The notes under the pieces: generated by a model
The model's input: only the letters and a program-made list of their open reading frames with translations
Database searches by the model: none
Told to the model about the DNA's origin: nothing
Shown: piece by piece, positions 5,673 through 33,721 of the stretch
Numbering within the stretch: position 1 is the stretch's first letter
Layout: each line of letters begins with the position of its first letter
Translations under genes and position numbers: made by a program
Assembly (NCBI GenBank): GCA_001802645.1
Contig: MGZJ01000078.1
Span: 1 to 45,193, forward strand
DNA: 45,193 nucleotides
Direction: 5' to 3'
Origin: Geobacteraceae bacterium GWC2_53_11
Lineage (GTDB): Bacteria > Desulfobacterota > Desulfuromonadia > Geobacterales > Pseudopelobacteraceae

Positions 5673-5747
5673 CGAGCCCTCGGTGGTGACGACAGACGGA
5701 TTGTAGGTGTGTCTCACGAGTTAACCACCAACCTACCCGAGGGCTCG
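5673..5747 (+). terminator. Long-range stem-loop after the tail tube gene
   Basis: CGAGCCCTCGG (5673-5683) pairs perfectly with CCGAGGGCTCG (5737-5747). Inside, GGTGGT (5682-5687) can pair with ACCACC (5724-5729) and GTAGGT (5703-5708) with ACCTAC (5731-5736), allowing alternative folds. It lies between the tube stop and the chaperone start (5779). It may terminate or stabilise the tube message. Confidence 0.5.
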
Positions 5748-5778
5748 CACATCACACTAAAAATAAAAGGAGTAGGAC

Positions 5779-6243
5779 ATGGCACTCGCATCACTCAATA
5801 CCGGCGCAGTAGCAAATAAGGGCCGTGCAATAGCACTTCTTCACCCTTCGCATCAAACACCGATCGGGATTCGTTTTTACGCTCTCGGCTTCGACTCCAA
5901 GGAAGCCAAGCGCATCCTTCGTGAACAGGAAAACGACCGTCTAGCCAAGCAGAAGAAAAACCGGGGCAAGCTCTATTTGCCGACTGCTGAAGAAACCGAG
6001 GAAAACGGGATTAATCTGCTGGTGGGTCTGACTACCGGCTGGGATGAAGATATCGTGGATGATGAAGGCAAAGTTACCGGAGTCCGCGATGAAATTGAGC
6101 TTAACCCCGGTCAGCTTGTTAAATTCAGCCCTGATGCCGTACGGGCAATTTACAAAGATCTCGGCTTCTCCTGGATCAAAGAACAGATGGACATAGAAAT
6201 CGGTGAACGTCGCGATTTTTTGCCATCGGAGAGTCAGAACTAA
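5779..6243 (+). CDS. Tail assembly chaperone, short form (lambda gpG-like)
   Basis: The 154-aa product starts at ATG 5779 after AAAGGAGT. Position between tail tube and tape measure genes is that of the tail assembly chaperone. Residues 30-60 (GIRFYALGFDSKEAKRILREQEND) are helical and charged. The reading frame ends at 6243, but a slippery heptamer T-TTT-TTG at 6216-6222 lets some ribosomes continue in the -1 frame. The short form should be the main product, as in lambda gpG. Confidence 0.75.
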   Translation: MALASLNTGAVANKGRAIALLHPSHQTPIGIRFYALGFDSKEAKRILREQENDRLAKQKKNRGKLYLPTAEETEENGINLLVGLTTGWDEDIVDDEGKVTGVRDEIELNPGQLVKFSPDAVRAIYKDLGFSWIKEQMDIEIGERRDFLPSESQN

Positions 6244-6647
6244 GCGATCACCTTGCCGAGGCGGCAGAGTGGCGGTTTCGCTTCGACACGCCCGGCAAGG
6301 ATGGTTGCACCCCGCGTCAGCATCTGGAACAGGTCTGGAAACAGACCAAACGCATGCCAGCGCTTCTGGAAGATGAGCCGGAATTTTACCCGGCGTTGCA
6401 ACATATATGGAACTGGTTCCACCAGCTGTCCAATACGCGAGGGGGCGGGTTCGGTCCCGCCCCTATCACGTTTCAAGAGATAGCAGCCTGGGCCGGGCTG
6501 ATGCAGACAGAGCCGACGCCCTGGGAGATTGAGCAGATCATACGGCTGGACGCGGTCTGGTTCAAACTGCAGGCGGAGCGGGATAAGGACAAGCCGGACA
6601 AGCGCCGGGGTAAGAAGGGGGTAAGAAATGCATCTGAAAGTAACTGA
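5779..6647 (+). CDS. Tail assembly chaperone, frameshifted long form (lambda gpGT-like)
   Basis: A -1 slip at 6216-6222 joins the 154-aa short form (from about residue 148) to about 140 residues read in the next frame, ending at 6647. The added part contains AEWRFRFDTPGKD, an acidic stretch, and then ITFQEIAAWAGLMQT...PWEIEQIIRLDAVW. This last pattern is common in the T-part of tail chaperones of siphoviruses. The -1 part has no good start codon of its own upstream of 6354, which supports frameshift expression. The long form would bind the tape measure protein during tail assembly. Confidence 0.7.
6216..6222 (+). promoter_or_regulatory. Programmed -1 frameshift site
   Basis: The zero-frame codons are GAT TTT TTG, so bases 6216-6222 form the heptamer T TTT TTG, a perfect X-XXY-YYZ slippery site. 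The -1 frame is open from here to 6647 without a stop. The zero frame stops only 19 bases later, at 6241-6243. Confidence 0.8.
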
Positions 6648-6840
6648 TGAGGAAGCACCATGGTACCGGGTCATTGACCAGGATACAGGAAATGAAATTA
6701 CATGTGTTGTCGAGGCCAATGATGAAACCGGTTTTTATAAGCAGCTGAAGCGTGATGCGGATGGAAAATATGTCCTGGATGAAAACGACGAACACGTTAC
6801 CGAAAGCAAGCAGGGCAACATTAAACTGATAAGAGTTTAA
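6628..6840 (+). CDS. Small phage protein of unknown function
   Basis: The 70-aa acidic product starts at ATG 6628 after AAGGGGGTAAG and overlaps the end of the frameshifted chaperone by 20 bases. It has pattern WYRVIDQDTGNEI, a short strand-rich fold, and ends IKLIRV. It is not recognised. Small genes of this type often sit directly before the tape measure gene in Mu-like siphoviruses. Confidence 0.55.
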   Translation: MHLKVTDEEAPWYRVIDQDTGNEITCVVEANDETGFYKQLKRDADGKYVLDENDEHVTESKQGNIKLIRV

Positions 6841-6863
6841 CAGGTAGTTAAAAGGGTCATTAA

Positions 6864-12800: not shown

Positions 12801-13109
12801 GGTTTGCCTGCCTTTGCCGACGGTACCAACAACCTGCCTTACGACATGATCGCCCAGGTGCATGAGGGAGAGCGTATCATTCCTAAAGCCGACAACTATG
12901 AGTTAATGCGGCGGCTCGACTCACCAGCCGACAACAAGGAACTGGTTGCTGCTATAGATAAGCTGGAAAAACGTCTGGAAAAAATCGAGCGTAACACGGA
13001 GGGCGGTAATCGTATCGCCCAGGCCGTGGGCCAGCAAACTATTGAGATCGGCAAGCGGCAGGAACGCAAGCTCGAAGACCTCGCCAATACTGCAAGGGTG
13101 GCAGCGTAA
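6864..13109 (+). CDS. Tail tape measure protein
   Basis: At 2,081 residues this is the largest gene, placed after the chaperone as expected. It sets tail length; at about 1.5 angstrom per residue the tail would be near 300 nm (inference). Seen: long Ala/Gln/Glu-rich coiled-coil stretches (about 375-580 and 1080-1500), two hydrophobic segments near residues 325-345 and 580-600, tandem repeats at about 1500-1795, and near the C-terminus (about 1975-2010) the pattern FADGTNNLPYDMIAQVHEGERIIP, which is common at tape measure ends. Its stop TAA overlaps the next ATG at 13109. Confidence 0.9.
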   Translation: MAALAKLKLVMEIDGDKAVVTGVERVDAAIDRTARNSQSATERMAAGMGNVETATGKMAAGMGGAETATGMMTLAAGSLYSMLQRVIGAWTAWEIVQKGKDATMFAANMQMAERAIGVVGNQTGHTVEMMTKYRDGLKDINITSMASTSTIAMMARAGLDLDGAIPLARLAQGAARMKALRGETVSSSSALDSMINGIITMQPEMLKQFGITATVEGAMRRYKQATGESAEALTEQQRVQLFFNDVLKDGQPLMSLYVNTLDLAASKISSSQRPVEELKLALGQLFLPELNVAATAYYNTVSGGMKWVKQHSSELGALSESITLLSSALITGGEVYLGYLLLFKGPAIVTAIAGWVQAFHAGQVANAEFSSQLAAGNVVQLNSVQATAMKTAAQAESAQTTASAALAELDHAAALQAGLVAEREITVAKLQNVIANESLIKSQVTAAEIELSQAALRTEAINANLAMIAKENAALAVKGDLTKSEAAFSNELRNAEFTSRNKLILATQEQAAAETKLAQIQASSLEATQLKTSALTELATVNKSAAIATTQLTAATAANEAAQMASIAATEASAAAASKAKWAWLSLGNAVNVLFAVYAGWEIGSWLNKFESVRVAGAAMVGGLIETWNRFLFVLDRVKASANPFGNGDEQIAALNRINEAEKQWKITHDQTMADVFKGTETAPSATKPYQNDQAAIEAANKAKADAATAAAKAAAAKAAEADISSYNSFVTAFNSKISAIEEANPLLSQHEKELLKIADAEAAMIVQYPKHTGEIKKLYAWINQETKAYQEHEQAIKNTSTEFKNLLAMWEADTATPQHNDAGQFSITNDQIIKLMNTLSGQTAIDDFNEKLRWLNGLMSESPERAAEISSAIAKLTADFNAIGLGRSIADISNQLSQVDMAEKTYSLSTEQAAQKRIELLDKQLVAQRAVYDSIPGDSDAGKAAQLQYQTAIISTTRSLQDQQILLRDRTAIGGMTAAIHKYNDDTTNIGKQVEQTFTSTFKNIENSIVTAFQKGKFSASDMFDFVKAETARMLIAKPLTNTLAQQFNPGSGTQFDSAGNITASAVPQGALYKASPYIAAGAAVLLFADNLLSSSDESEKAFKTLTDALKDMATSVHAQTQRLTGQSNQAALSELGTKQAQESRDLKSMQDDRWKYLMGSMIAASGNIEAVIAYQKRISEANAQSIKESGDLLALHNLQIQAVKDEQNATFNKLKLQQLEMQALKGTTEYISALNSIRAVELNKLDDVKNASGESERSVQAMIYALEDQAAAAEKATAALAYNADLTTRLLAASGQDKLSSLYALQVKQEKELADARKNGMDTAMLVQVQQLEMANAMKTASETISEATQKIIATAKTALTDAVSLNTTILGTMRELLSGASAQLSPEAAYQQAKSQFATADASNVSDRVTAFMTASQAYNGSGQSYQTDRLAALDKLSQFAETAPTLSNVERQIQLLGEIKSAVESGDAALISATQITYNAAQIDMGTARNALTIALEGIQSALNTPITAGTASGAITGQISALQSSINTGIMDGTAKSVITAQISGLQNTFNSPVYDGTAKAAMAGQITALQNTINTTVMDGTTKTALLAQITAFSAATNTYVPDGTAKTAIQAEINALQTKLNTGVTGSAKDAISNSIGALQLALNGTISAATAQASISGAYSTVQGALNGTISGTVAANSLATQYSITQAALNGTISSAAATQALQTVYGTVQSALNGTISSTTATQAIGTVYATVQGALNGTVSGSAAASAIGSTYSTIQGALNGTISGATAATTIAGQYGSVTSALDSGLNVGTNSISSLLSTFNDSLTASAKTTRDGLLNFTNALAIVSDYTRQRTDAQAALGSLSSQYRAGTITGDQYTTQAATALAPLNSTISAGAALGLTSLSAPTSGITSEDIDARMKTLFTSLTKPGGELYEIAYGHVPASATQLAKYDIAPFVNGKPQPNGTIDLLDLYVGQNFATGLSKWSTIGLPAFADGTNNLPYDMIAQVHEGERIIPKADNYELMRRLDSPADNKELVAAIDKLEKRLEKIERNTEGGNRIAQAVGQQTIEIGKRQERKLEDLANTARVAA
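11371..12250 (+). repeat. Two families of tandem repeats inside the tape measure gene
   Basis: The first part (to about 11800) encodes five to six units of about 24-28 residues built on INT-x-V-x-DGTAKTAI-x-A-x-I-x-ALQ. The second part (about 11800-12250) encodes six units of about 23 residues built on ALNGTIS then A..I...Y.TVQG. Both appear to be helical units that arose by tandem duplication. Confidence 0.8.
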
Positions 13110-15661
13110 TGAGCGAACCTATATCCCTGGTCGAACTGACCGACCATACCGGTTTTGTCCACCGATTTTGCACAGGGTCTACCGCCTGGACATCTCTGCC
13201 GACCGACAATCCGCCGAACGCATACTATGCCCCACGGGTGGAACAAGCTGGCCTGACCCGCCAGAGCATGTTTGCTAAAGGCACAACCAGTGGCAGCAGC
13301 ACCGGCGGCAAAGGTGACATTGTTCTCCGAAACTCGGATGGTGGGCTTGATCACTTTGTTGACCTCGGCTTTGACGGTCAATTGTGTGTTGTTAAAGACG
13401 GCACTCGGGATATGGTGTTATCTCAATTTGCCACTGTTCTCAGCGGTACGGTAGAGCAACCTGAATTGTCGTTCCTTAAGGTAACGTTACTGTGGAAAGA
13501 TTATGCAGCTCTCCTCAACACCCCGATTCAGACGTTGCATTATCTTGGTAATAATGTCGGCTCTGATGGTATCGAGGGCGGTCCGGAACTGAAGGATAAA
13601 CTAAAACCGCGCCTGAAGGGCAATCCCGGAATCAACCTCAAACCAGTGTGCGTCAATACTGCAAAGTTGGTGTATCAGGTCAACGCCTACGGTCCGGTAT
13701 ATGATATTCCTGCAGTTCACATCGGCGGCAACGTAGGTCAGATCATCCAGGGGGCAAATTACGCGACCAGCGCCGAGCTGCTGGCCGTTATTCTGCCACT
13801 GGTTACCGATCCGCCGTCGATCCCCGGCATTTATATCACCTGCCTGGCAGAGGGTTTGTTTCGCCTGGATGGCAATCCAATCGGAGATGTCACCTGTGAA
13901 GCCATAGAAGGTGCTACAGCGGCTGATCGTACAGCTGGGCAAATTATCAAGGCGCTGGCAATTGAAAAACTCGGCGAGGCACAAGTTGCTGCGCAGCCGG
14001 TCCTCGATCTTGATAAAGCAGCACCATACCAGGTCGGAATTTATGCTGACACGAATGAGACGAGCTACAGCCAGGCGTTTGAATCTCTATGTGGCGATGT
14101 CGGGGGGTGGTGGGGATTCGACAACCTATCTATCTTCTGGGTGAAACAGCTGACTCCTCCGACTGTTGCCCAGGCCATAATGACATTGGACCCGTCGAAA
14201 AATGAATATATCAAAATCGACCGGGTTGCGACGGCAGATGGTGACCATGGCGTTCCGGTATGTCGTGTTTTTGTGGAGTACTCAAAAAACTGGACCTTGC
14301 AGACGTCCGGCCTGGCCGGGAGTTCATCCTCCGGACAGTTGTGGTATGGCCCTGATACGGTGACACCTCCTAATGTCGGTCGGCATAATCTGTTGTCCAT
14401 GGAATATCTTCGCACCAAAGCGGAGAATCTTGCAGTGCTTGATGTTCATAAAAATGCCCCGACACTTACGATCAAGACGACATTAAACACTCAGGCAGAT
14501 GCGGACACGGAAGCCGCCCGGATTCTAGCCTTACGCTCAGTTCGCCGGGATCGGCTAAATATAAAGCTACCTATTGCTGCAATTCAGTATTCACCACTGG
14601 GTGATTGGGATAATGAGGCCATCACCGAACTTCCCACAACGACAGCATTCACTGATTACGCTATCTACACCACCACGGTTTATATTTACGACGTTACATA
14701 TGGCAGATTCATGTATCTCGACCTATTAAATCCTCAAGGGCACTGGCACTGGTTTGGAACACCAGCATATCCTACCAACGGGATGAATCTGACGACAAAT
14801 ATTATCGGGAATTACATCTATGCAATTGGTGGTATCAGCGGCGGGTTCGGAAACAAAATAACTCGCAGACTAGATTTAACCGGAGATGGTACGTGGGATA
14901 ATGCCGGAGTCGCGGAATTATTGACGGGTGTTGGGTTACACGCGGCGGTAGTTTATGACAATGATGTATATGGGTACCACGTGCTCATTTGTATCGGTGG
15001 AATTGATGAATCGGCATCGGCAACAGACACGGTGCAAGTCTTGGACATAACAAACCCCGCATCACCGTGGGGAGCAATGTTAAGCCTTCCGCATCCCCGA
15101 TTCGGCCACACCGGGGAGGTTCATGGTGATTGGATCATAGTTATAGGCGGAGACGAGCTGACGTTTGGTATTACCAGCCGCATCCTTGTCTATGACTTTG
15201 CTGCCATGTTTTCTCAGTCATGGGACGCTACAAAGATAACCCCGCTGCCATCTCCACGAGTAAACCACGCATCCTGCATTATAGATAATTATCTGTACGT
15301 CGCCGGGGGAGAATATCCCTATTACACACACCTGACATCTGTCATCCGGCTGGATCTGCGCAACCCGTTAGGTGCGTGGGAACTGGTAAGCGACTTGCCT
15401 TATCCGAGATCGAACCTTTGTATTGCCGGTATAAATAAATCCATCTTTGCCTTTGGCGGATACGCTGGGGCTAATGAAGCAAATTCGTGGAAACTTCGCT
15501 CAAATGATACGCCAGAGGACAAATCTCAGCTGACGTCATTAGGCCGCACGGTTCTGGTTAAACATCCTCGTTACGGCTACTCGGATGGGCGGCCCATGAA
15601 AATTATCGGCAGCGAATCAGATCTGAAAAACAGAATGATGACGCTTGAAGTCTGGGGGTAA
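13109..15661 (+). CDS. Tail-tip/hub protein with an inserted kelch beta-propeller
   Basis: The 850-aa product is coupled to the tape measure gene by TAATG. Residues 1-480 and 800-850 appear to form one tail-tip protein: an N-terminal part that begins with a ligand-like beta domain, and an end with LGRTVLVKHPRYGYSDGRPMKIIG, the usual final strand of such hub proteins. Between them (about residues 485-795) there is a kelch-type region with repeated YAIGG, ICIGG, IVIGG, YVAGG and FAFGG motifs spaced about 50-60 residues apart, a six- or seven-bladed propeller in outline. It is probably displayed at the tail tip for receptor or sugar binding. Function is inferred. Confidence 0.7.
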   Translation: MSEPISLVELTDHTGFVHRFCTGSTAWTSLPTDNPPNAYYAPRVEQAGLTRQSMFAKGTTSGSSTGGKGDIVLRNSDGGLDHFVDLGFDGQLCVVKDGTRDMVLSQFATVLSGTVEQPELSFLKVTLLWKDYAALLNTPIQTLHYLGNNVGSDGIEGGPELKDKLKPRLKGNPGINLKPVCVNTAKLVYQVNAYGPVYDIPAVHIGGNVGQIIQGANYATSAELLAVILPLVTDPPSIPGIYITCLAEGLFRLDGNPIGDVTCEAIEGATAADRTAGQIIKALAIEKLGEAQVAAQPVLDLDKAAPYQVGIYADTNETSYSQAFESLCGDVGGWWGFDNLSIFWVKQLTPPTVAQAIMTLDPSKNEYIKIDRVATADGDHGVPVCRVFVEYSKNWTLQTSGLAGSSSSGQLWYGPDTVTPPNVGRHNLLSMEYLRTKAENLAVLDVHKNAPTLTIKTTLNTQADADTEAARILALRSVRRDRLNIKLPIAAIQYSPLGDWDNEAITELPTTTAFTDYAIYTTTVYIYDVTYGRFMYLDLLNPQGHWHWFGTPAYPTNGMNLTTNIIGNYIYAIGGISGGFGNKITRRLDLTGDGTWDNAGVAELLTGVGLHAAVVYDNDVYGYHVLICIGGIDESASATDTVQVLDITNPASPWGAMLSLPHPRFGHTGEVHGDWIIVIGGDELTFGITSRILVYDFAAMFSQSWDATKITPLPSPRVNHASCIIDNYLYVAGGEYPYYTHLTSVIRLDLRNPLGAWELVSDLPYPRSNLCIAGINKSIFAFGGYAGANEANSWKLRSNDTPEDKSQLTSLGRTVLVKHPRYGYSDGRPMKIIGSESDLKNRMMTLEVWG

Positions 15662-15662
15662 C

Positions 15663-16475
15663 GTGAGTAGTAACGCCATCATATCGTATCCAGACCGTTC
15701 ATTGACGGCAACGCTGTTACCTGGTGGAACATGGTTGGAAACGGCCCCATTGGCAATTTTACTCGACCCTGTACTATCACATGTGGCGCGATCTACAACG
15801 ACACTGGCCAGCGCGTCTATAATACGCTGGGATCTGGGTGCAGCTTACCCAATCCGCGTACTGAGTCTTTGTGCTCATAATCTCACATCAGCGGGCACAA
15901 TCAGAGTGCGGGGCTATTCCGACTCCGGATTCACGACACTGGTCGCTGGCGCAGACACCGGAGTTGTACCCGCATGGCCTGCCGGTTTCACTGCTCGGAA
16001 TGTGTCTGAGTACCCGAAGAACTGGACGTACTGTTTTACAGCAGCCAAAACAGCCAGATATTGGCAGTGGGAGCCGGTGGATGTGGCTAACCCTTCCGGA
16101 CATATTGAGATAGGGCGTACATGGCACGGTGAGGCAACATTTGAGCCGGAAACCGGTGTTTCGTTTGGTATGTCACTGGGCTACGGATCCCACGACGTGA
16201 TTGAGGATTCGCCAGAGTGGGGGGAAAAGCGGACTCCGAAGCGCGAGCTGATTGCGGTATTCAAAACACTGACTCCAGCCGAGAAGAGAGCAGCATTGAT
16301 CATGCAAAAGGTGCTGACTGAGACGACCGAGGCGTTTTGGATATCCAACAGCCAGGCTGTCGCTGATGACATGCTGTTGGAGGCATTTCCGGCCTTCATG
16401 TCGAAGCCGTCACCGATTGCGTATCCGTATTTCAATAACCACGAAATGCCGATATCGATCATCGAAAGGGTATAA
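15663..16475 (+). CDS. Tail-tip associated protein of unknown function
   Basis: I place the start at GTG 15663, one base after the previous stop and behind GGGGG; the frame could also open at TTG 15645. The 270-aa product begins SSNAIISYPDRS and is beta-rich. Residues 45-150 (SIIRWDLGAAYPIRVLSLCAHNL, then IEIGRTWHG) look like a galactose-binding/discoidin-like jelly roll. Later, KRELIAVFKTLTPAEK and a final IERV are helical. This type of protein follows the hub gene in several siphoviruses. The exact role is not known. Confidence 0.6.
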   Translation: MSSNAIISYPDRSLTATLLPGGTWLETAPLAILLDPVLSHVARSTTTLASASIIRWDLGAAYPIRVLSLCAHNLTSAGTIRVRGYSDSGFTTLVAGADTGVVPAWPAGFTARNVSEYPKNWTYCFTAAKTARYWQWEPVDVANPSGHIEIGRTWHGEATFEPETGVSFGMSLGYGSHDVIEDSPEWGEKRTPKRELIAVFKTLTPAEKRAALIMQKVLTETTEAFWISNSQAVADDMLLEAFPAFMSKPSPIAYPYFNNHEMPISIIERV

Positions 16476-20467: not shown

Positions 20468-21145
20468 ATGTTTTTAAAAGTAAACGATCTTGCCGCCGCT
20501 ATCGGCGTTGATGAAAAAACCGTGCTGGGGTGGATAAAAAGCAAAGGGCTCCCGGCGCATAAACAGGATGACCGCTATCGCGTCAACCGGGTTGATCTGC
20601 TGGAATGGGCCACCACTCACGATATCTCCATACCTCCCGACATCTTTGCGGCCAGTGGCGACACCCCGGATCGTCCGCTTGTCTCCGACGCGTTGGTGCA
20701 GGGGGGGATCTACTACGATGTGCCGGGAGATACGCCGGAAACAGCACTGCGCGAAGTCGTTTCTCGTCTTCAGCTCCCTCCGAGCATGGATCCTGATTTT
20801 CTGCTGCAGACCCTGCTGGCCCGTGAAGCGCTTGGCTCGACGGCCCTGGGCAACGGCATTGCCATACCGCACGTCCGCAGTCCGATCGTCGGGCACACCG
20901 GCGAATCGGCCATCAGTCTCTGCTTTCTCAAAAATCCCATCGATTTTGACGCGATTGACGGCAAGCCGGTTACCATACTCTTCACGCTGGTGACGCCGAA
21001 TGTCAAGATACACCTGCATTTGCTGGCGAAGCTTGCCTTCCTGCTGCATGATGCACCTTTTCAGGAGCTGCTCCATCGTCCCGGCAACGAAGACGAGATC
21101 ATGGATGTGATCCGGGCGTTGGAGAAAACGATTATTCACAGGTAG
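20468..21145 (+). CDS. HTH-PTS IIA (PtsN-like) fusion regulator
   Basis: The 225-aa product starts at ATG 20468 behind GGAGAG. Residues 1-50 are an excisionase/MerR-type helix-turn-helix (VNDLAAAIGVDEKTVLGWIK, then DDRYRVNRVDLLEW). Residues 85-225 are a type-2 PTS EIIA domain with the phosphorylated-histidine motif GIAIPHVR (H135) and LFTLVTPNVKIHLHLLAKLAFLL. A DNA-binding head on a nitrogen-PTS-like receiver suggests a regulator that reads PTS phosphorylation. The gene sits directly upstream of the Ehr operon and may control it (inference). Confidence 0.8.
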   Translation: MFLKVNDLAAAIGVDEKTVLGWIKSKGLPAHKQDDRYRVNRVDLLEWATTHDISIPPDIFAASGDTPDRPLVSDALVQGGIYYDVPGDTPETALREVVSRLQLPPSMDPDFLLQTLLAREALGSTALGNGIAIPHVRSPIVGHTGESAISLCFLKNPIDFDAIDGKPVTILFTLVTPNVKIHLHLLAKLAFLLHDAPFQELLHRPGNEDEIMDVIRALEKTIIHR

Positions 21146-23235: not shown

Positions 23236-23269
23236 CAGGTTTCTGTTTTCCGTATGAGGAGGCTTTGCC

Positions 23270-24349
23270 ATGAGTCCAGCCGGCACCATTCACGAACAGC
23301 CGATTGCAGATCGCATCGATTGGGTCTTTGATCTTGCCCAGAGATACTCGGCGGAATTCTGCTCTCCGGAAGCCTTTCTCGCCCGTGAACGGTATCTGGC
23401 TCTTCATCCGACCGCCATTGCCGTCCTGAAATGCATGGATGGCCGCATCAATATCCCGGTGGCCACCAAGACACCTCCCGGCATCATGCAGCCGTTCCGG
23501 AATCTGGGGGGGATGTTCGACATGGGATGGCCCCATCTGGGCGAGGTGCTGGCCCAGTATGTCCAGCGCATGGTGAGAAACGGCCGTCGGGTCCTGATCC
23601 TGATCACCTACCATTTCTCCCGTGGCGATGTTCACCGCGGCTGTTCCGGTTTCGGCTGCGACACCGGTGCGGCGATTGCCCACACCCGCCAGATTCAGCG
23701 CCAGATGGAGGCTATCTTCGGCCTCGGCCACGACAGCGTCTATCCCCTTATCTGCGGTTTTGAGACCGATGAGGATGCCCTGCTGCTGCACAGCTCGGAC
23801 GGTTCGATCCTGGATCTGTCCGGCGATATGCCGGAAGATGCGCTTGCCGCGGAACTGGCGCTCCGTTTTCATGACATGCCGCTCGAAATGCGGAGCGACC
23901 TTCTTCCGCTGCTGGTCGGCAACATCTCCCACATCAAGGGATTGCGCAGGGAGCGGCGTTCGCTCATCGTCGAACATCGTGAATGGATGATCTGCCTGGG
24001 GCGCGGCTTCGATTTTCTGCATACTCCCAATCTGGCCCTGATCATCGGGCCGTACAGTCCCAACCTGTCCGACCCTATCCGCAAGGCGGCGGCAATTATC
24101 GAAAGCAACATGGCCTCCGGTCGGGTTCCCGACGACGGCTTTCTGCTGCTCGCTTCGGTGCCGTACGATGAAATAGGGGTTGACCGGGCGCGCGCGGTCC
24201 TGAAATCCCACTTCCTTTCCCAATTTGCCGCAGAAGTGATCGAACGCGAGTTTCCCGATCTGGCCGGGAAAATGATCCGGCACACCGCGGTGCTCGACTG
24301 GAATTCCCGCAGGATAGAGGCGCTGACGGAATCAGATGTATCGCCGTAG
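23270..24349 (+). CDS. Beta-carbonic anhydrase-like protein embedded in the Ehr operon
   Basis: The 359-aa soluble product starts at ATG 23270 after ATGAGGAGG. It carries, in order, C55-M-D57-G-R59 (the CxDxR motif of beta-carbonic anhydrases: zinc cysteine and Asp/Arg dyad), FRNLGG (77-81, like the RNxGG motif), and H122-R-G-C125 (HxxC: zinc histidine and cysteine). H115 is an alternative ligand. Spacing C55 to C125 (70) fits beta-CA and carboxysomal CsoSCA proteins. The remaining 200 residues are a second lobe with no clear motif, possibly a decayed repeat, as in CsoSCA. Role in hydrating CO2 is inferred. It lies between two NuoL-like genes, 34 bases after the first. Confidence 0.6.
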   Translation: MSPAGTIHEQPIADRIDWVFDLAQRYSAEFCSPEAFLARERYLALHPTAIAVLKCMDGRINIPVATKTPPGIMQPFRNLGGMFDMGWPHLGEVLAQYVQRMVRNGRRVLILITYHFSRGDVHRGCSGFGCDTGAAIAHTRQIQRQMEAIFGLGHDSVYPLICGFETDEDALLLHSSDGSILDLSGDMPEDALAAELALRFHDMPLEMRSDLLPLLVGNISHIKGLRRERRSLIVEHREWMICLGRGFDFLHTPNLALIIGPYSPNLSDPIRKAAAIIESNMASGRVPDDGFLLLASVPYDEIGVDRARAVLKSHFLSQFAAEVIEREFPDLAGKMIRHTAVLDWNSRRIEALTESDVSP

Positions 24350-24606
24350 AAGTATCCAGCGCTCTGTTTCTCACAAAATCAGGAACTTGTGGTTGTAGTT
24401 TCCCTAAACGATAAGCTTGGTCGGGTAAAAAACAGGTCGGACAGTTCAAAAGTATCCAGCGGCAAATTCAATAAAAAGCCTGTTATTGCAACACATTTTG
24501 GTTGACACGTATACGCTTCAGGGTTCACTATCTCTTCCCGTTGGAAACATTGTTTGTCTCTCTGCTCACCTGATTAAGAACTTAATCCATTCAAGGAGTT
24601 TCCGGT
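24350..24606. other. Intergenic gap in the Ehr operon with a short direct repeat
   Basis: No gene is seen in these 257 bases. AAGTATCCAGCG occurs at 24350-24361 and exactly 100 bases later at 24450-24461. A possible promoter is listed at 24502-24531. The gap is large compared with others in this operon. Confidence 0.5.
24502..24531 (+). promoter_or_regulatory. Candidate internal promoter of the Ehr operon
   Basis: TTGACA (24502-24507) is followed after 18 bases by CACTAT (24526-24531), about 75 bases before ATG 24607. The -10 is weak (3 of 6), the -35 perfect. Confidence 0.35.
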
Positions 24607-26657: not shown

Positions 26658-26686
26658 TATCCCGTGTGTCGGGCCGGAGAGTTGCC

Positions 26687-27595
26687 ATGACGAACAGTAT
26701 CATCCATATCTTTCTGGCGCTTGTGATGCCTCCCCTGCTGCTGGGGGTAATCGGTAAAACGAAGGCGCTGTTTGCCGGGAGAGTCGGGGCGCCTTTCCTG
26801 CAGCCGTATTACGACATCCTCCGTCTGCTGCATAAAGGCACCGTATTCAGTACCACCACCAGTTGGGTATTTCGCGCCGGGCCGATTGTTGCGCTGGCTA
26901 CGACCGCGGTTGCCGCGCTGCTGATCCCGTTCGGCGCACATCCGGCACCGATCTCGTTTACCGGCGACATGATCCTGTACGCCTATCTGTTTGCCCTGGG
27001 CCGGTTCTTTACCATGGCTGCCGCGCTCGATACCGGTTCGAGTTTTGAGGGGATGGGGTCGGCTCGTGAGGCGACCTACTCCTGTCTGGCCGAGCCGACG
27101 CTCTTTTTTGCCCTGATCACCCTGTCGCGCCTGTCCGGCTCATATACATTGTCCGGGATGCTGGTCAACATCAACTTCAGCGTCTGGATGCACACCAGCG
27201 CTGCCCTGCTGCTTCTGGTCGGCGGAATGTTCATCGTGCTGCTGGCCGAAAACTGCCGCATTCCTTTTGACGACCCCAACACCCATCTGGAACTGACCAT
27301 GATCCATGAAGTCATGGTGCTTGATCATAGCGGTCCGGCGTTTGCCATTATCCAGTATGCCGCTGCTCTGAAGCTGTTCGTGCTGGGAGCCTTTTTTGTC
27401 CACCTGGCGCTGCCGTACTCGACCGGCAACGCGCTTCTCGACTGGGGGCTCTTTATCATTTCCATGCTGGAACTGGCTGTTGTCATCGGCGTGGTCGAAT
27501 CGGTCATGGCGCGTTTGCGGCTGATTCGTGTTCCCCAGCTTCTGGTCGCTGCCACTATTCTGGCAGCGTTTTCTACTCTGCTCGTCATCAGGTGA
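26687..27595 (+). CDS. NuoH/HyfC-like membrane subunit
   Basis: I chose ATG 26687 because GGAGAG lies 8 bases upstream; a GTG at 26666 is less likely. The 302-aa product has eight hydrophobic segments. The block AKTKALFAGRVGAPFLQPYYDILRLLHKG (shown in part: LFAGRVGAPFLQPYYDI, about residues 24-40) is the typical basic loop of NuoH/HycD, and AENCRIPFDDPNTHLELTMIHE (shown in part: RIPFDDPNTHLELTM) is the conserved acidic loop where quinone or ions are coupled. It links the soluble arm to the antiporter modules. Confidence 0.9.
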   Translation: MTNSIIHIFLALVMPPLLLGVIGKTKALFAGRVGAPFLQPYYDILRLLHKGTVFSTTTSWVFRAGPIVALATTAVAALLIPFGAHPAPISFTGDMILYAYLFALGRFFTMAAALDTGSSFEGMGSAREATYSCLAEPTLFFALITLSRLSGSYTLSGMLVNINFSVWMHTSAALLLLVGGMFIVLLAENCRIPFDDPNTHLELTMIHEVMVLDHSGPAFAIIQYAAALKLFVLGAFFVHLALPYSTGNALLDWGLFIISMLELAVVIGVVESVMARLRLIRVPQLLVAATILAAFSTLLVIR

Positions 27596-27600: not shown

Positions 27601-28242
27601 ATGATTACTCTGGCCGATCAACTTCTAGTCCTGGTCCTGCTGATAAACTTTATCTCGCTCGGCACCAGCCGTCTGATGTTTTCCATTCGTGCGGTGGCGG
27701 CCCAGGGGGTCATCCTCGGGATTCTTCCCGGTCTGATCCATCCGTTCTCCTGGCACCTGGTCGCGATCACGGTCGTCATACTGGCGGTCAAGGGGGTGAT
27801 TATCCCGATGATGCTGGGGCGCGCCGTTCGTTCCGCAGAAATCAAGCGCGAAGTGGAACCGTTTCTGGGATATGTCCCCACGCTGCTGCTCGGCGCGGTC
27901 TTTACGGCACTTTCGTTCGGCTTTGCCGGTCGGCTGCCGATGCTGGCGGAACACCAGAACTACATGTTCGTGCCGGCTTCGATCGCCACGCTGATGACCG
28001 GTTTTCTGGTGCTGACGACCCGTCGCAAGGCCATTTCCCAGGTTATCGGCTATCTTGTCCTTGATAACGGCATATTTATCTTCGGCCTGCTGCTGACGGA
28101 AGCGATGCCGGTCATGGTTGAAGCGGGGGCGCTTCTTGATCTTCTGGTCGGCACCTTTGTCATGGGCATCGTCATCAACCAGATCAGCCGTGAATTTTCA
28201 TCGCTGGACACCTCACTTCTGACCTCGCTGAAAGAGGAGTAG
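27601..28242 (+). CDS. HyfE-like (NuoK-containing) membrane subunit
   Basis: The 213-aa product starts 6 bases after the NuoH-like stop. It has about six or seven hydrophobic helices. The second half (VLTTRRKAISQVIGYLVLDNGIFIFGLLL, in part: AISQVIGYLVLDNGIF) resembles the HyfE/NuoK core with the acidic residues DN and, later, TEAMPVMVEAGALLDLLVG. HyfE proteins serve as the NuoK-type channel of hydrogenase-4-like complexes. Confidence 0.85.
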   Translation: MITLADQLLVLVLLINFISLGTSRLMFSIRAVAAQGVILGILPGLIHPFSWHLVAITVVILAVKGVIIPMMLGRAVRSAEIKREVEPFLGYVPTLLLGAVFTALSFGFAGRLPMLAEHQNYMFVPASIATLMTGFLVLTTRRKAISQVIGYLVLDNGIFIFGLLLTEAMPVMVEAGALLDLLVGTFVMGIVINQISREFSSLDTSLLTSLKEE

Positions 28243-28246: not shown

Positions 28247-29680
28247 ATGTACGCTGCCCTGATCATACTTCCGCTTATCGGAGCCGCCGTCACCTGGCTG
28301 ATTCCGTTTGACCGGCTGCGCCCCAAGGTGCTGTCGCTGTTCACCTTTGCCCACCTTGGTATCACCATCCAGATGCTCTCCTTCACGCCGCCACAATCTC
28401 CCGGCGGCTGGTTTTGCCTTGATGCGCTCGGGAAAATTGTGCTGCTCAGCACCAGTGTGCTCTTTCTGTTCTGCGCCCTCTATTCAATCGGGTACCTGTT
28501 CTATCGCCGGGAACGCTCCAACCGGGTGCTCTGCTGCGGCTTGCTGGTCTGCCTGTCCGCCGCATCCATGGTTACCATTACCCACCACCTGGGGCTCATG
28601 TGGGTGGCGCTTGAAACAACCACCATCTCCATGGCGCCGATGATCTACTTCAACCGCAATGCCCGTTCGATCGAGGCTACCTGGAAATATCTGCTGATCT
28701 GCTCGGTCGGCGTCGCGCTGGCCTTGATTGGTCTTTACTTTCTCGCCTACGCCACGATTGTCGCCAGGGTGGAACCGTCGCTGCTGCTGGATGATCTCAT
28801 CCGGGATGCCGGCAAGCTCTCCTCCGGCTGGGTTCATGCGGCGTTCGTCTTCCTGCTGATCGGTTTTGGCACCAAAATGGGTCTGGCCCCGCTTCATACC
28901 TGGAAGCCGGATGCGTACGGCGAGGCTCCCGGACTGGTCGGCGCCCTGTTGTCGGGCGGCCTGGTCAACCTGGCTTTTCTGGCGTTGCTGCGCATCTATC
29001 AGCTCAGTCTGGCAACCAAAGAAATCATGTTTTTTCAAAATGCCCTGGTTGTCATGGGGCTGATTTCGATGATTGTCGCGGCGATCTTCATGGCCCGTCA
29101 GGCCGATTTCAAGCGCATGCTGGCCTATTCCAGCGTTGAGCATGTCGGCATCATGGCGGTCGCACTCGGCCTGGGGGGGAAGGCGATTTTCGGCGCCCTG
29201 TTTCACATCCTCGCCAATGGTCTTTCCAAAGGGGTGATGTTCCTCTCGTCCGGCAATATCCACCGATCGTACAACAGCAAAAGTACCGATCATGTGCGGG
29301 GTGCTCTCCGACGTCTTCCCTGGTCGGGCGGGCTGTTTCTGGCCGGTTTCATTGCCATTACCGGCTCACCGCCGTTTGCGCCGTTCATCAGCGAATTTAC
29401 CATTGTCAGCAGCGCCTTTATCCAGGGGCGCATGCTGGTCGGCGCAATTTTCCTGATCTCGCTGATGATTATTTTTATCGGCATGGCCCTGACGGTCCTG
29501 CCGATGGTGATGGGCGAGGTTCCGGCTGACAGCGAAACAACGTCGTATCGTGACACCATCTATACGGTCGGTCCGCCGTTGGCCCTTTTGCTGCTGGTGT
29601 TCCTGCTGGGGGTATGGATACCTGCTCCGCTGATGACGCTGCTCAATGAAGCATCAGCACTTCTGGGGGTGCCTCAATGA
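28247..29680 (+). CDS. HyfF/NuoN-like antiporter subunit
   Basis: The 477-aa product starts at ATG 28247 after AGAGGAG. It contains about 12-14 membrane helices and the core blocks GFGTKMGLAPLHTWKPDAYGEAP, FKRMLAYSSVEHVGIM and AITGSPPFAPFISEF. TKMGLAPLHTW is typical of the HyfF/HycC-like third antiporter. The stop overlaps the next start (ATGA at 29677). It belongs to the same complex. Confidence 0.9.
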   Translation: MYAALIILPLIGAAVTWLIPFDRLRPKVLSLFTFAHLGITIQMLSFTPPQSPGGWFCLDALGKIVLLSTSVLFLFCALYSIGYLFYRRERSNRVLCCGLLVCLSAASMVTITHHLGLMWVALETTTISMAPMIYFNRNARSIEATWKYLLICSVGVALALIGLYFLAYATIVARVEPSLLLDDLIRDAGKLSSGWVHAAFVFLLIGFGTKMGLAPLHTWKPDAYGEAPGLVGALLSGGLVNLAFLALLRIYQLSLATKEIMFFQNALVVMGLISMIVAAIFMARQADFKRMLAYSSVEHVGIMAVALGLGGKAIFGALFHILANGLSKGVMFLSSGNIHRSYNSKSTDHVRGALRRLPWSGGLFLAGFIAITGSPPFAPFISEFTIVSSAFIQGRMLVGAIFLISLMIIFIGMALTVLPMVMGEVPADSETTSYRDTIYTVGPPLALLLLVFLLGVWIPAPLMTLLNEASALLGVPQ

Positions 29681-31197
29681 GCTTTGGTATGAAAACCTTC
29701 TATAACGGCACTTCGTTCAAGCGGAGTGACATCCCGGTGCCGGATAACGATACGTTCTTTCAGGGTGTCCTGGATGCCATAACCGCGGGATGGCGGGTCT
29801 GCTCCTATTTCGGCGTGCCGACTGCCGACGGGGCGACGCTCTACTGCGTCATGTCCGCCCGGGCCGGGAGCGGTATTCTCGGCATTGCTGCGACAACGGT
29901 CGGACGTACGTTCCCGTCGCTGGCGTCTCTCTGTCCGCAACTGCACCTGTTTGAGCGCGAGATTGCCGAACAGTGCCTGACCCGCCCGGAAGGGCATCCC
30001 TGGTTCAAGCCGGTTCGTTTTCAAAAGCCGCTCTGTGAAGGAAAAGGGTTCTGGAGTGAAACCGACGGCGGTGGTCTGACCCCTGCCGTGATGGATTTCT
30101 ACCGCGTCGAGGGTGATGAAGTTCACGAGGTTGCCGTCGGGCCGGTACATGCCGGGATCATTGAACCGGGGCACTTCCGCTTCCAGTGCCATGGCGAAGA
30201 AGTCTTCCACCTTGAGATCGCCCTCGGCTTTCAGCATCGCGGCATCGAGCGGGCGTTGATCGGCGGGCCGACGCCGCGTACCGTGCATGAGATGGAAACG
30301 ATTGCGGGCGATACCACCGTCGGCCATGGCCAGGCGTACTGCATGAACATGGAATCGCTGGGCGGTGTGTTTGCGTCGCCGCGAGCCGAGACGGTGCGCG
30401 GCATTGCTCTGGAACTGGAACGGCTTGCTAATCATACCGGGGATCTGGGGGCGATTGCCGGGGATGTGGGGTATCTGCCGACCGCCTCGTTTTGCGGCCG
30501 CATCCGGGGCGATTTCCTCAATATGACCGCCTTGTTATGCGGAAGCCGCTTTGGCCGTGGTCTGCTCAGGCCGGGCGGCATCGGCTATGATTGCGACGCC
30601 GCACTGGTCGATGAACTGCACAAGCGTCTGCAGGCGGCACGGGAAGACCTGGCCGGAGCGGTCGGGCTGCTCTGGGATTCCCCTTCGGTAATGGCGCGTC
30701 TGGAGGATGTGGGCATCGTTACGGCGGCTGATGCCCGCGAGATAGGTCTGGTCGGTCCTGCGGCCCGGGCGTGCGGTCTGAACCGCGATGTCCGCCGTGA
30801 CCACCCGTTCGGCATCTTCCGGATCAGCCAGATACCGGTTATCACGGCGACTACCTGTGACGTTGCCGCCCGTACGCTGCTTCGCTGGCTGGAGGCGGAG
30901 CGCTCGCTGGATTTTATCGATGAACAGGTGCAGCATCTGCCGCGTGGCACCTATCGCAACCAGATGAAGGAAATTGCCCCGGAACGGTGTGCCGTTGCCT
31001 TGACGGAAGGGTGGCGCGGTGAAATCTGTCATGTCGCCCTGACCGATGACCGGGGGCGTTTTGAACGCTACAAAATCGTTGACCCGTCGTTTCACAACTG
31101 GAACGGGCTGGGGCTTGCTCTGCGGAATCAGCAGATTTCCGATTTCCCGCTCTGCAACAAGAGCTTTAACCTGTCGTACTGCGGGTATGATCTGTAG
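29677..31197 (+). CDS. Ehr-type large subunit (NuoC-NuoD fusion, NiFe ligands absent)
   Basis: The 506-aa product has a NuoC-like N-terminal domain (about 1-140, FPSLASLCPQLHLFEREIAEQ in the loop region) and a NuoD/hydrogenase-large-subunit domain (about 150-506; ALGFQHRGIERAL at 182-194). In NiFe hydrogenases the first metal motif CxxC aligns with residues 210-213 here, which read A-G-D-T. The last motif (DPCxxC) aligns with N498-L-S-Y-C-G, so the two metal cysteines become S500 and G503. The site therefore cannot bind Ni-Fe as hydrogenases do. Ehr complexes are known for exactly this. The alignment was done by eye. Confidence 0.85.
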   Translation: MSFGMKTFYNGTSFKRSDIPVPDNDTFFQGVLDAITAGWRVCSYFGVPTADGATLYCVMSARAGSGILGIAATTVGRTFPSLASLCPQLHLFEREIAEQCLTRPEGHPWFKPVRFQKPLCEGKGFWSETDGGGLTPAVMDFYRVEGDEVHEVAVGPVHAGIIEPGHFRFQCHGEEVFHLEIALGFQHRGIERALIGGPTPRTVHEMETIAGDTTVGHGQAYCMNMESLGGVFASPRAETVRGIALELERLANHTGDLGAIAGDVGYLPTASFCGRIRGDFLNMTALLCGSRFGRGLLRPGGIGYDCDAALVDELHKRLQAAREDLAGAVGLLWDSPSVMARLEDVGIVTAADAREIGLVGPAARACGLNRDVRRDHPFGIFRISQIPVITATTCDVAARTLLRWLEAERSLDFIDEQVQHLPRGTYRNQMKEIAPERCAVALTEGWRGEICHVALTDDRGRFERYKIVDPSFHNWNGLGLALRNQQISDFPLCNKSFNLSYCGYDL

Positions 31198-31208: not shown

Positions 31209-31306
31209 ACCACCCCTAGCCCCTCCTACCAAAAGTAGGCGCTTCCAAGCGAAATAGGAGGGGGACTTTTACTCCCCTCCTTAGTTAAGGAGGGGTTGGG
31301 GGTGGT
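31209..31306. repeat. Palindromic repeat element inside the Ehr operon
   Basis: The left end ACCACCCCTAGCCCCTCCTA (31209-31228) and the right end AAGGAGGGGTTGGGGGTGGT (31287-31306) are near-perfect inverted repeats. The interior has further CTCC/GGAG pairs. It lies between the large and small subunit genes, and the ribosome site of the small-subunit gene begins at its edge. Confidence 0.75.
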
Positions 31307-31316
31307 TGGAGTTACT

Positions 31317-32078
31317 ATGCTAAAAGCACTACTCACACGTTTCCGACAGGGGCACCGCACCATGGCGTACCCGGATGCCCCGCAGCCGCTGCCGGCCCGG
31401 TTTCGCGGGTTGCCGGTTATTGAACCGGCACGCTGCGGCGACGGCTGCCGCGCCTGCGCTGCTGCCTGCCCGTATGGTTGCATATCCGCTTCAGGGTCCC
31501 TGACGCTCGATATGGGAACATGCCTGTTCTGTGCTGACTGTGTCGCCGCCTGTCCGCATGATGCGATCTCGTTTTCGGCCACGGATGCCTGTCTTGCCAG
31601 TCGCACCCGTGAGGGGTTGACGGTGACTGCCGGCGAGGAGTATCATGCCGCGGTTGCCCTGGAAGGCGAATTGCTGCGCCTGTTCGGACGCTCTCTCAAG
31701 TTGCGTGAGGTCAGCGCCGGTGGCTGCAATGCCTGCGAAGCCGACACCAACGTGCTCTCTACCATCGGGTGGGACCTGGGGCGCTTCGGCATCCAGTTCG
31801 TTGCCAGTCCCCGTCACGCCGACGGCATGTTTGTGACCGGCCCGGTCAGCGAGAACATGCGTGAGGCGCTGCTGGCCACCTATGCGGCGATTCCCGAGCC
31901 GAAGCTGGTGATCGTTGCCGGTGCCTGTGCTATCAATGGCGGTCCGTTCAAGGACCACGCCGAAGTTCATAACGGGGCTGACGGTTTTGTTCCGGTTGAC
32001 CTGTACATCCCCGGCTGTCCCCCCAGTCCGTTGACCATTCTGGACGGACTGCTGCGGCTGGTGGGACGGGTGAAGTAG
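31317..32078 (+). CDS. Ehr-type small subunit: ferredoxin (HyfH-like) fused to NuoB/HyfI-like domain
   Basis: I chose ATG 31317 with GGAG seven bases upstream over a TTG at 31296. The 253-aa product has two 4Fe-4S motifs: C40, C44, C47, C51 and C69, C72, C75, C79. Residues 110-253 form a NuoB/hydrogenase small-subunit domain with C137-N-A-C140, C204 (GAC) and C234 (PGC), enough for the proximal cluster. In other complexes the two parts are separate genes (HyfH, HyfI). It would pass electrons to the altered large subunit, so an electron donor or acceptor is needed even though Ni-Fe is absent. Confidence 0.85.
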   Translation: MLKALLTRFRQGHRTMAYPDAPQPLPARFRGLPVIEPARCGDGCRACAAACPYGCISASGSLTLDMGTCLFCADCVAACPHDAISFSATDACLASRTREGLTVTAGEEYHAAVALEGELLRLFGRSLKLREVSAGGCNACEADTNVLSTIGWDLGRFGIQFVASPRHADGMFVTGPVSENMREALLATYAAIPEPKLVIVAGACAINGGPFKDHAEVHNGADGFVPVDLYIPGCPPSPLTILDGLLRLVGRVK

Positions 32079-32195: not shown

Positions 32196-32275
32196 ACTAA
32201 GGATATTAGAGTTTGTACGCAGGGCTTTGTGCCGTGCGCTGTTGGGAAATATCATACAAATGGGAGGAAGCTGTA

Positions 32276-33721
32276 ATGGATTCAGAAAAGCAGGAAGTGT
32301 ATCTTCAGGACTGGAAAAACCATGAAGCATGTGCCGAACGGATGTTGCCGATTATTGGCCGGATGTACCGCGAGAATAATGTTGTGCCCACGGTGTACGG
32401 TCGTCCGCTGGTGCATTGTTCGGTGATCGACATCCTCAAGGCCCATCGCTTTGCCAGGCTGATCATCGATACGGAGCTTTCCGTTACAGATACCCTGCCG
32501 CTTGTGGAAGCGATGGCCAAGCTTGATCTCGCACCTGCCCGTGTTGATCTCGGCAAGTTGATCGTGAAATACCAGAGTCTGAACGGTTCAATGACCGTTG
32601 AGGCTTTCGTCAGCCAGGAACTGGGCAAAATCAATACCGGCCGCGGTGCTCTGCGCCCTGAACCGCAGGATGTTGTCCTGTACGGTTTCGGCCGTATCGG
32701 CCGTCTCTTGGCCCGGATTCTGGTGGAAAAAGCGGGTAGCGGTGAAAAACTGCGTATCAGGGCTGCTGTCGTTCGCAAAGGAGGCGCTGACGACCTGCTG
32801 AAACGCGCCAGCCTGCTGCGTCGCGACTCCGTTCATGGCCCTTTTGACGGCATCATTACCATTGACGAGCAGGAAAATGCCATTATCGCCAACGGCAACA
32901 TGATTCGTATTATTTACGCCGATGCGCCTGAAAACATCGATTACACCCAGTATGGCATCCACGATGCCATACTGATCGACAACACCGGCAAGTGGCGTGA
33001 CCGTGAAGGCTTGGGTAAACATCTCAAGGCCAAGGGAATTGCCAAGGTTGTTCTTACCGCTCCGGGCAAAGGCGACATCCCCAATGTGGTTTCCGGCATC
33101 AATGATGAACTGATTACGGAGCAGGAACAGATTTTCTCGGCCGCCAGCTGCACCACCAATGCGATTGTTCCGGTGCTGAAGGCTGTCAACGACCGTTTCG
33201 GAATCGTGAGCGGTCACGTGGAAACCTGCCACTCATATACCAACGACCAGAACCTGATCGATAACTATCACAAAGCTTCACGGCGCGGGCGCAGTGCCCC
33301 TCTCAACATGGTTATTACCGAAACCGGCGCTGCCAAGGCTGTTGCCAAAGTTATTCCGGAGCTGGGCGGTAAGCTGACCGGTAACGCCATTCGCGTGCCG
33401 ACCCCGAACGTCTCCCTGGCGATCCTGAACCTTGAACTGGCCCATCCGGTCGATGTTGCCGGGATCAACAGTTACCTGCGTAATATGTCGCTTGATTCGC
33501 CCCTGCAGAACCAGATTGATTATACCAATTCACCCGAAGTCGTTTCGAGCGACTTTGTCGGCTCGCGTCATGCGGGCGTGGTTGATTCGCTGGCGACAAT
33601 CGCCCAGGGAAATCGCTGTGTCCTGTATGTCTGGTACGATAATGAATTCGGGTACAGCTGCCAGGTAGTACGCATGGTTCAGCAGATGGCCGGTTTGGAA
33701 CTGCCGACCCTGCCGAGCTGA
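32276..33721 (+). CDS. gap: Glyceraldehyde-3-phosphate dehydrogenase, long form
   Basis: I chose ATG 32276 after GGGAGGAAG; the frame opens earlier at 32213 but lacks a ribosome site. The 481-aa product has a 130-residue N-terminal extension, then GFGRIGR (137-143, NAD binding), and the catalytic motif SAASCTTNAIVPV with C292. Later WYDNEFGYS is also typical. The dehydrogenase part is about 350 residues, so the size matches the extended GAPDH type found in several proteobacteria. It oxidises G3P with NAD(P) and phosphate, or works in reverse in gluconeogenesis. The function of the extension is not known. Confidence 0.9.
   Translation: MDSEKQEVYLQDWKNHEACAERMLPIIGRMYRENNVVPTVYGRPLVHCSVIDILKAHRFARLIIDTELSVTDTLPLVEAMAKLDLAPARVDLGKLIVKYQSLNGSMTVEAFVSQELGKINTGRGALRPEPQDVVLYGFGRIGRLLARILVEKAGSGEKLRIRAAVVRKGGADDLLKRASLLRRDSVHGPFDGIITIDEQENAIIANGNMIRIIYADAPENIDYTQYGIHDAILIDNTGKWRDREGLGKHLKAKGIAKVVLTAPGKGDIPNVVSGINDELITEQEQIFSAASCTTNAIVPVLKAVNDRFGIVSGHVETCHSYTNDQNLIDNYHKASRRGRSAPLNMVITETGAAKAVAKVIPELGGKLTGNAIRVPTPNVSLAILNLELAHPVDVAGINSYLRNMSLDSPLQNQIDYTNSPEVVSSDFVGSRHAGVVDSLATIAQGNRCVLYVWYDNEFGYSCQVVRMVQQMAGLELPTLPS

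Follow-up and report, generated by a model that had tools for sequence, protein, structure and literature searches.

A carbonic anhydrase-like gene lying between two NuoL/HyfB-like subunit genes of an Ehr-type membrane complex in Geobacteraceae bacterium GWC2_53_11 raises the question of what its product is, and of whether that product serves the complex or merely shares its operon. We address this question on contig MGZJ01000078.1 (45,193 nucleotides; hereafter the window, meaning the whole stretch of DNA that was analyzed) and on related loci from a genome collection, taking as our starting point a preliminary description made from the letters of the window. The reading we favor, with a probability of about one half, is that the gene would encode an accessory carbonic anhydrase (CA), an active, cytoplasmic zinc enzyme co-expressed with the adjoining subunit HyfB1 and serving the Ehr-type complex.

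Typing of the surrounding genes with Pfam and NCBIfam bears out both the Ehr-type operon proposed in the preliminary description and its placement of the CA gene between two NuoL/HyfB-like genes, HyfB1 and HyfB2 (Table 1). Judged by its gene content, the operon is of the Ehr type as outlined in the Ehr account of PMC6349859, comprising Hyf-like subunits (two HyfB-like genes with NuoH/HyfC-, HyfE-, HyfF-, NuoCD- and ferredoxin/NuoB-like genes) and a NuoCD protein that contains no CxxC at all and hence no nickel-iron site. The NCBIfam family nearest to HyfB1 is hydrogenase 4 subunit B, with a score below the cut-off of that family, and its nearest solved chain is formate hydrogenlyase subunit 3 (7z0s_C, E 2.7e-67). 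The regulator-like gene sits before HyfB1 in the near relatives read, and a match to it is present in 83 of the 120 Ehr regions introduced below. The CA gene lies 34 bp downstream of HyfB1 and 257 bp upstream of HyfB2, with all three genes on the same strand; no terminator is listed between CA and HyfB2 (24350-24606), where promoter-like matches are fewer than in shuffled sequences. Two further features of the window were recorded on either side of the operon. The Ehr genes are followed by a gene for a 502-aa glyceraldehyde-3-phosphate dehydrogenase (32213-33721), as they are in many near relatives, and a prophage-like stretch (676-16475) has PHROG matches to a head maturation protease, a head-tail adaptor and a minor tail protein, together with two proteins (850 aa and 276 aa) assigned to phage families whose function is unknown and one of 2081 aa that has no match.

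Table 1. Features of the CA gene and the Ehr-type cluster, in window coordinates.
Feature	Position	Strand	Basis
Regulator-like gene, HTH_17 and PTS_EIIA_2, first in cluster	20468..21145	+	Pfam
HyfB1, NuoL/HyfB-like antiporter-like membrane subunit, 668 aa	21229..23235	+	Proton_antipo_M E 3.5e-50
AGGAGG, ribosome-binding-site-like motif	23257..23262	+	Sequence; seven bases 5' of the CA ATG
CsoSCA2-type beta-carbonic anhydrase (CA), 359 aa	23270..24349	+	Pfam, conservation, 2FGY alignment, model, fold match
HyfB2, second NuoL/HyfB-like subunit, 665 aa	24607..26604	+	Family matches
HyfC/NuoH-like subunit	26666..27595	+	NADHdh E 1.6e-32
HyfE-like subunit	27601..28242	+	Hydrogenase 4 membrane subunit, E 7.3e-18, under cut-off
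HyfF-like antiporter-like subunit	28247..29680	+	Hydrogenase 4 subunit F E 2.8e-93 (under cut-off); Proton_antipo_M E 2.1e-44
NuoCD/HyfG-like subunit without CxxC nickel-iron motifs	29677..31197	+	Complex1_49kDa E 5.5e-38
Fused ferredoxin (4Fe-4S domains) and NuoB-like subunit	31296..32078	+	Oxidored_q6 E 2e-25, Fer4 domains

The identity of the gene product is carried by family and fold. The protein matches one Pfam family, CsoSCA_cat (PF20686; E 1.2e-6, 28.7 bits against a cut-off of 21.5), and has no match at E <= 1 to Pro_CA (PF00484), the canonical beta-CA family, or to DabA (PF10070). Against solved structures, a profile of 59 sequences retrieved CsoSCA chains exclusively at E <= 1 (5 distinct sequences, best E 3.8e-8); the lone match of a single-sequence PDB search, to nitric oxide synthase (E 3.2e-4), was judged to be due to chance. 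An AlphaFold2 model of the protein (pLDDT 90.2, pTM 0.88) likewise returned CsoSCA chains with Foldseek (E 3.7e-16 to 5.5e-15), with structural Z-scores of 29.5 (8thm), 28.3 (9g4t) and 28.0 (2fgy) over 332-338 residues at an rmsd of 3.0-3.3, and these were followed in rank by the beta-CA 1ddz (Z 19.1 over 287 residues) and by other beta-CAs at Z about 9-11. The CsoSCA_cat score and the fold match are far beyond chance, and the predicted fold is that of CsoSCA (Z 28-29.5), not one unrelated to beta-CA, the outcome on which the preliminary description had said its proposal would fall. The gene is under purifying selection, with dN/dS of 0.066-0.113 in 15 pairs among 6 sequences.

Among CsoSCA-related proteins, the closest description is that of CsoSCA2, which was named in 2022 and is presented by its authors as widespread and not yet studied (PMC9164163). 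The same account describes a compact variant ('csoSCA alone') that is found outside carboxysome loci and has an N-terminus of about 40 aa with two helices, an active domain and a second domain. The window CA is like this variant in its catalytic domain with seven active-site residues, in its two-helix N-terminus of about 40 aa (helices 12-30 and 33-45 in the model, within an N-terminal part of about 47 aa, the first strand starting at residue 48) and in its non-carboxysome locus, the latter resting on the absence of the RuBisCO large subunit from the genome and on the family typing of the neighbors. By sequence and model, then, the 359-aa protein is a beta-class carbonic anhydrase of the CsoSCA2 family, compact variant; CsoSCA2 being a divergent beta-CA (Pfam, fold, conserved residues), the beta-CA identity put forward beforehand was right in substance.

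The predicted active site comprises C55, D57, R59, H115, C125, H236 and E238, which in an alignment with 2FGY (numbering offset of 28) correspond to the CsoSCA active-site residues C173, D175, R177, H242, C253, H397 and E399 given in PMC9164163. All seven are invariant in the 78 aligned sequences, that is, the window protein and 77 relatives, 3 of 80 relatives having been left out for a stop in their translation. The C55-x-D57-x-R59 and RNxGG (R77-N-L-G-G81) motifs pointed out in the preliminary description are present and equally invariant (78/78). Its third motif, H122-x-x-C125, stands in part: the string exists and C125 is invariant, but H122, there taken as a zinc ligand, is His in only 24 of the 78 sequences. 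The predicted zinc histidine is H115, invariant and aligned with H242 of 2FGY, as C125 is with C253. Canonical beta-CAs have the zinc motif H-x-x-C; with H115 and C125 invariant and H122 variable, the zinc motif of the window CA is therefore of the CsoSCA type (H-x9-C), and of the residues on whose conservation the earlier proposal had been staked, C55, D57 and C125 hold and H122 does not. On sequence and model, a zinc enzyme with CO2 hydration activity is very probable. Residues strictly specific to Geobacteraceae, as against a conserved alternative elsewhere, number three (V19, M85 and S126). In addition, all 14 Geobacteraceae rows have a Cys at position 130 (C130 in the window CA), five residues beyond the predicted zinc ligand C125, compared with 2 of 64 others. 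Considered as a docking mark, V19, M85 and S126 (with C130) were set aside as too few to argue from.

Homology to CsoSCA could also be taken to indicate a carboxysomal or RuBisCO-linked enzyme, a true CsoSCA. We find this barely credible, because the genome, which is 96.5% complete, has no RuBisCO match, and because about 47 aa precede the first strand of the catalytic domain, compared with 144 in the CsoSCA of Halothiobacillus, a protein that binds RuBisCO through its N-terminus (PMC9164163). The NCBIfam equivalog for carboxysomal CsoSCA (TIGR02701) gives the window protein 32.1 bits, against a cut-off of 241.05. Given the lack of a RuBisCO match, supply to the Calvin cycle is unlikely, and a RuBisCO link was rejected; CsoSCA2 itself has been reported from heterotrophs such as Accumulibacter (PMC9164163).

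The distribution of the gene in relatives constrains its relationship to the complex. In the genome collection, 245 stretches encode a relative of the CA. The best 80 of these were retained; 13, from Geobacteraceae and their close kin, show 85-89% identity, and the remaining 67, from other groups, 63-72%. Across the own genome and 57 relatives, CsoSCA2 is carried by 13 of 58 (12 of the 37 in the genus, plus genome G044 of another family), versus 54 of 58 with Ehr NuoCD at E <= 1e-160; a HyfB1 match at E <= 1e-60, with a query that also picks up HyfB2, is found in 56. Constant co-occurrence of the CA with the Ehr genes, which the preliminary description had proposed as a check, does not hold, and the frequent absence that it had named as counting against its proposal is what is observed. 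CsoSCA2 is absent from 45 of the 58 genomes, and 41 of these 45 have Ehr NuoCD, so it is not a fixed or obligatory Ehr subunit, and that reading was ruled out.

Where CsoSCA2 does occur, its position is regular. In all 13 loci (L014-L026) it comes directly after HyfB1 on the same strand, at 19-81 bp in 12 of them and at about 26 bp between match ends in L018. CA and HyfB2, in contrast, are separated by anything from 0.13 to over 4 kb; unrelated inserts thus come behind the pair, not between its members. The genus offers 25 judgeable HyfB1/HyfB2 slots, 12 with CsoSCA2 and 13 others that were read directly: two hold a canonical beta-CA, four are empty (154-197 bp), two contain a PemK/MazF-like pair, one contains another insert and four a second Ehr operon, 11 of the 25 holding neither kind of CA. 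The two canonical beta-CAs (genomes G007 and G033) are on the operon strand, with a Pro_CA E of 2.5e-51 for the G007 copy, and in the HyfB1 tree these genomes form one clade, and hence mark one origin, inside a 15-row clade that includes 8 CsoSCA2 rows. To explain the presence of CsoSCA2 on the same tree, 7 changes of state are required, and well-supported branches make at least 4 of these unavoidable. With FastTree, the 14 CsoSCA2 rows from Geobacteraceae group in a single clade (support 1.0), for which the simplest account is one origin, later losses or transfers, and a single replacement.

The space between HyfB1, or the CA, and HyfB2 gathers unrelated genes (L095, L097, L100, L105, L106, L018) and so resembles an insertion hot spot. 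The inserts that could be typed (the PemK/MazF-like pair, AAA_21 with RloB, Band_7 and others) have no common theme, and their strands differ, the PemK/MazF-like pair being opposite to the operon and the L100 inserts on the operon strand. The second Ehr/Hyf operon seen between HyfB1 and HyfB2 in four relatives (L110-L113) is distant (29-50% identical), and the HyfB1-HyfB2 insert of L103 (genus g9), of about 3.2 kb, encodes a protein in which CxxCH heme motifs were seen by eye. Two operons are mosaics: in that of G044 (L104), identity to the window is 85-89% for CA, HyfC, HyfE and HyfF and 76% for HyfB2, but 60-70% for the regulator, HyfB1, NuoCD and ferredoxin-NuoB, and in L019 it is 69% for NuoCD versus 87% for CA. 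The CA and the HyfC-to-HyfF genes stand as near to the window here as those inside its own genus do, the genes that flank them having diverged. These mosaics suggest that the CA may have moved together with the membrane-arm genes.

A gap that takes unrelated genes, in a complex that most Ehr-bearing relatives run without CsoSCA2, is what would be expected of an ordinary free cytoplasmic CA that has settled in an insertion-tolerant part of the Ehr operon and is expressed along with it, with no functional tie to the complex. We regard this explanation as possible but somewhat unlikely. The inserts other than CsoSCA2 vary, with the PemK/MazF-like pair on the opposite strand and several inserts behind the CA. 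CsoSCA2, by contrast, invariably takes the place right after HyfB1, shares its strand and has a ribosome-binding-site-like motif.

Further evidence comes from canonical beta-CAs. In the class, 162 of 277 genomes have Ehr NuoCD at E <= 1e-120, and 120 Ehr regions (2.10 Mb) were read. These are not a random sample: 20 were chosen because HyfB1 and HyfB2 share a contig there (6 of these were known CsoSCA2 carriers), and 100 came from among the listed NuoCD matches, with some places left out, mostly near-duplicates or contig edges. A tblastn search of this sample, in which the first query (from L096) alone gave the same ten genes as four queries, found 10 beta-CA genes where 1.1 are expected from the PF00484 density of the 58 genomes (123 matches in about 233.6 Mb), an excess of about ninefold (Poisson P 3e-7). 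Two of the ten (L127 and L129, from G041 and G048) were known beforehand to have a beta-CA nearby, and 8 remain without them (P 2e-5). The ten represent six genus-level groups, and with kinship accounted for by group only, six against 1.1 gives a P of about 1e-3 and five gives 6e-3. No more than 0.6 kb separates eight of the genes from an Ehr gene or the regulator, and six of these eight are on the operon strand, in the slot (L096, L101), after ferredoxin-NuoB (L126, L127, L129) or before HyfB2 (L181); the remaining ones are divergent from the regulator (L200, L206) or 6.6-7.3 kb away on the other strand (L186, L193). Both the presence of another CA family in the same slot and the excess of beta-CAs at Ehr loci count against a free CA. 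By match positions, G043 and G045 have a beta-CA on the same strand 1.2-1.3 kb from a NuoD-like complex I match, which shows that Ehr loci are not alone in this tendency and fits a tie to complex-I-like operons generally.

Outside Geobacteraceae the evidence on a free CA is divided. A majority of the 67 CsoSCA2 loci (56) lack any match to DAB, SulP, Hyf-like, antiporter-like or beta-CA genes, as does an Accumulibacter locus in which CsoSCA2 lies beside a SpoU methylase, and these favor an unattached enzyme; the occurrence of CsoSCA2 at DAB and SulP-Hyf loci, among the other 11, argues against it. In L048, L055, L083 and L092 a distance of 4.6-5.6 kb separates DabA from CsoSCA2, with Pfam DabA proven in the last three. 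DabA was found in 24 of the 49 CsoSCA2 genomes searched, and in the loci of those 24 the four cases observed compare with about 0.11 expected. Two antiporter-like genes are present in L066, and two weak ones are 6-8 kb off in L027; SulP alone follows CsoSCA2 in L032 and L067, and SulP with a Hyf-like operon stands beside it in L045, which carries a Pro_CA gene too, L075 and L091. In L045, L075 and the DAB loci the neighbors are tail to tail with CsoSCA2 and so do not form operons with it, whereas in L091 CsoSCA2 and its SulP/Hyf neighbors agree in strand. Loci with such neighbors are scattered over the CsoSCA2 tree.

In the three SulP-Hyf loci, from Betaproteobacteria (L045), Rhodocyclaceae (L075) and Thiobacillus (L091), the SulP permease gene heads the Hyf-like operon, and a bicarbonate-uptake locus is possible. 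In the class of the L075 genome, 43 of 369 genomes have Hyf-like NuoCD at E <= 1e-110. Among the 20 further Hyf-like regions of these genomes that were read, SulP was found in none, and its role as a regular partner of Hyf-like operons was not upheld; CsoSCA2 was found in one (L230), 100 bp behind NuoB on the same strand. Pfam misses some CsoSCA2 proteins, that of L230, 73% identical to the L045 protein, having no match at 0.001.

Taken together, the canonical beta-CA in the same slot, the beta-CA excess at Ehr loci and the CsoSCA2 genes by DAB and SulP-Hyf loci support a functional link between CA and Ehr, which does not look like chance. From these gene neighborhoods, it appears fairly likely that the CA gives functional service to the Ehr complex. 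Since CAs of more than one kind recur beside complex-I-like operons, the pump may help CO2 and bicarbonate handling.

In the accessory reading that we favor, the Ehr complex would probably take electrons from ferredoxin or a similar donor via its Fe-S subunits, and would probably move protons through HyfB1, HyfB2 and HyfF. The CA would interconvert CO2 and HCO3- + H+ on the cytoplasmic side, beside the proton-input side of the pump; with flux in the direction of hydration, the protons released could be taken up by the complex, and bicarbonate would be left for carboxylations or export. With no RuBisCO match in the genome, the bicarbonate would serve carboxylases of central metabolism, or else the CA would turn over respiratory CO2 and protons.

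The neighboring position of the CA and HyfB1 genes also admits a tighter coupling, in which the CA would be docked on HyfB1, by analogy with CupA on NdhF3 and DabA on DabB, and Ehr electron flow would drive one-way CO2 hydration. The subunit logic would parallel that reported for NDH-1MS (PMC6981117) and DAB2 (PMC13144422), but HyfB1 has no CA beside it in many relatives, CsoSCA2 proteins outside Geobacteraceae remain 63-72% identical, with three residues alone marking the Geobacteraceae group, and, with all CsoSCA active-site residues kept, the enzyme should work unaided, unlike DabA2. We consider such coupling improbable; because the full CsoSCA active site is kept, activity without HyfB1 is expected, and for this reason we favor an accessory enzyme over one gated in the manner of DAB. 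An energy-linked bicarbonate pump, as raised in the preliminary description, is possible. It is similarly doubtful that Ehr includes a redox-driven CO2-hydrating type, which would recruit CsoSCA2 or a canonical beta-CA at a HyfB-type subunit and convert CO2 to bicarbonate one way in non-photosynthetic, partly heterotrophic bacteria. If true, this ferredoxin-linked complex-I relative would be a bacterial counterpart of NDH-1MS in which the CA part is of unrelated descent.

CsoSCA2, Ehr, DAB and NDH-1MS are each already known separately. In the open-access literature, among the matches listed, no paper was found on CsoSCA or CsoSCA2 together with Ehr or Hyf, nor was one found on CsoSCA together with Geobacter, and the main text of a 2024 review of inorganic-carbon toolkits (PMC10880623) contains neither 'NuoL' nor 'Geobacter'. 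The recurrent CsoSCA2-Ehr link, with the other kind of CA in the same slot, provides a testable CO2/bicarbonate role for both, and the pairing of CAs with complex-I-like subunits, as in NDH-1MS and DAB, may have evolved on more occasions than the literature records, and outside autotrophs as well.

The main text of PMC9164163 contains no 'Geobacter', and its CsoSCA2 section no Ehr, Hyf or DAB neighborhood, whereas the window CA lies in an Ehr operon. The operon is like known Ehr complexes in its Hyf-like set, its NuoCD without nickel ligands and its antiporter-like subunits, and contains a CA gene that goes without mention in the Ehr account of PMC6349859, which treats the role of Ehr as unsettled and calls for experimental testing. 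With DAB1/DAB2 and MpsAB the window shares the pairing of a beta-CA-like protein with a NuoL-like subunit, DAB2 having the beta-CA-like DabA on the NuoL-like DabB, and DabA a Cys-His-Cys zinc site and an Asp-Arg dyad, with DabA2 missing a residue that stabilizes the transition state (PMC13144422). It differs from them in that DabA belongs to PF10070 and has a membrane finger motif, the window CA being roughly one third as large as the DabA proteins encountered in this analysis, and in that the window CA neighbors a complex with redox subunits. In cyanobacterial NDH-1MS (CupA/CupS), CupA binds the terminal NdhF3 and has an alpha-helical fold drastically unlike known CAs, with zinc bound by His130/Arg135 (PMC6981117). 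Unlike the all-helical CupA, the window CA has, in the model, the alpha/beta CsoSCA fold, and it is not an obligatory subunit; like CupA, it is a zinc protein (in its case by prediction, as is its CO2-hydrating activity) whose neighbor is a terminal antiporter-like subunit in a relative of complex I linked to ferredoxin.
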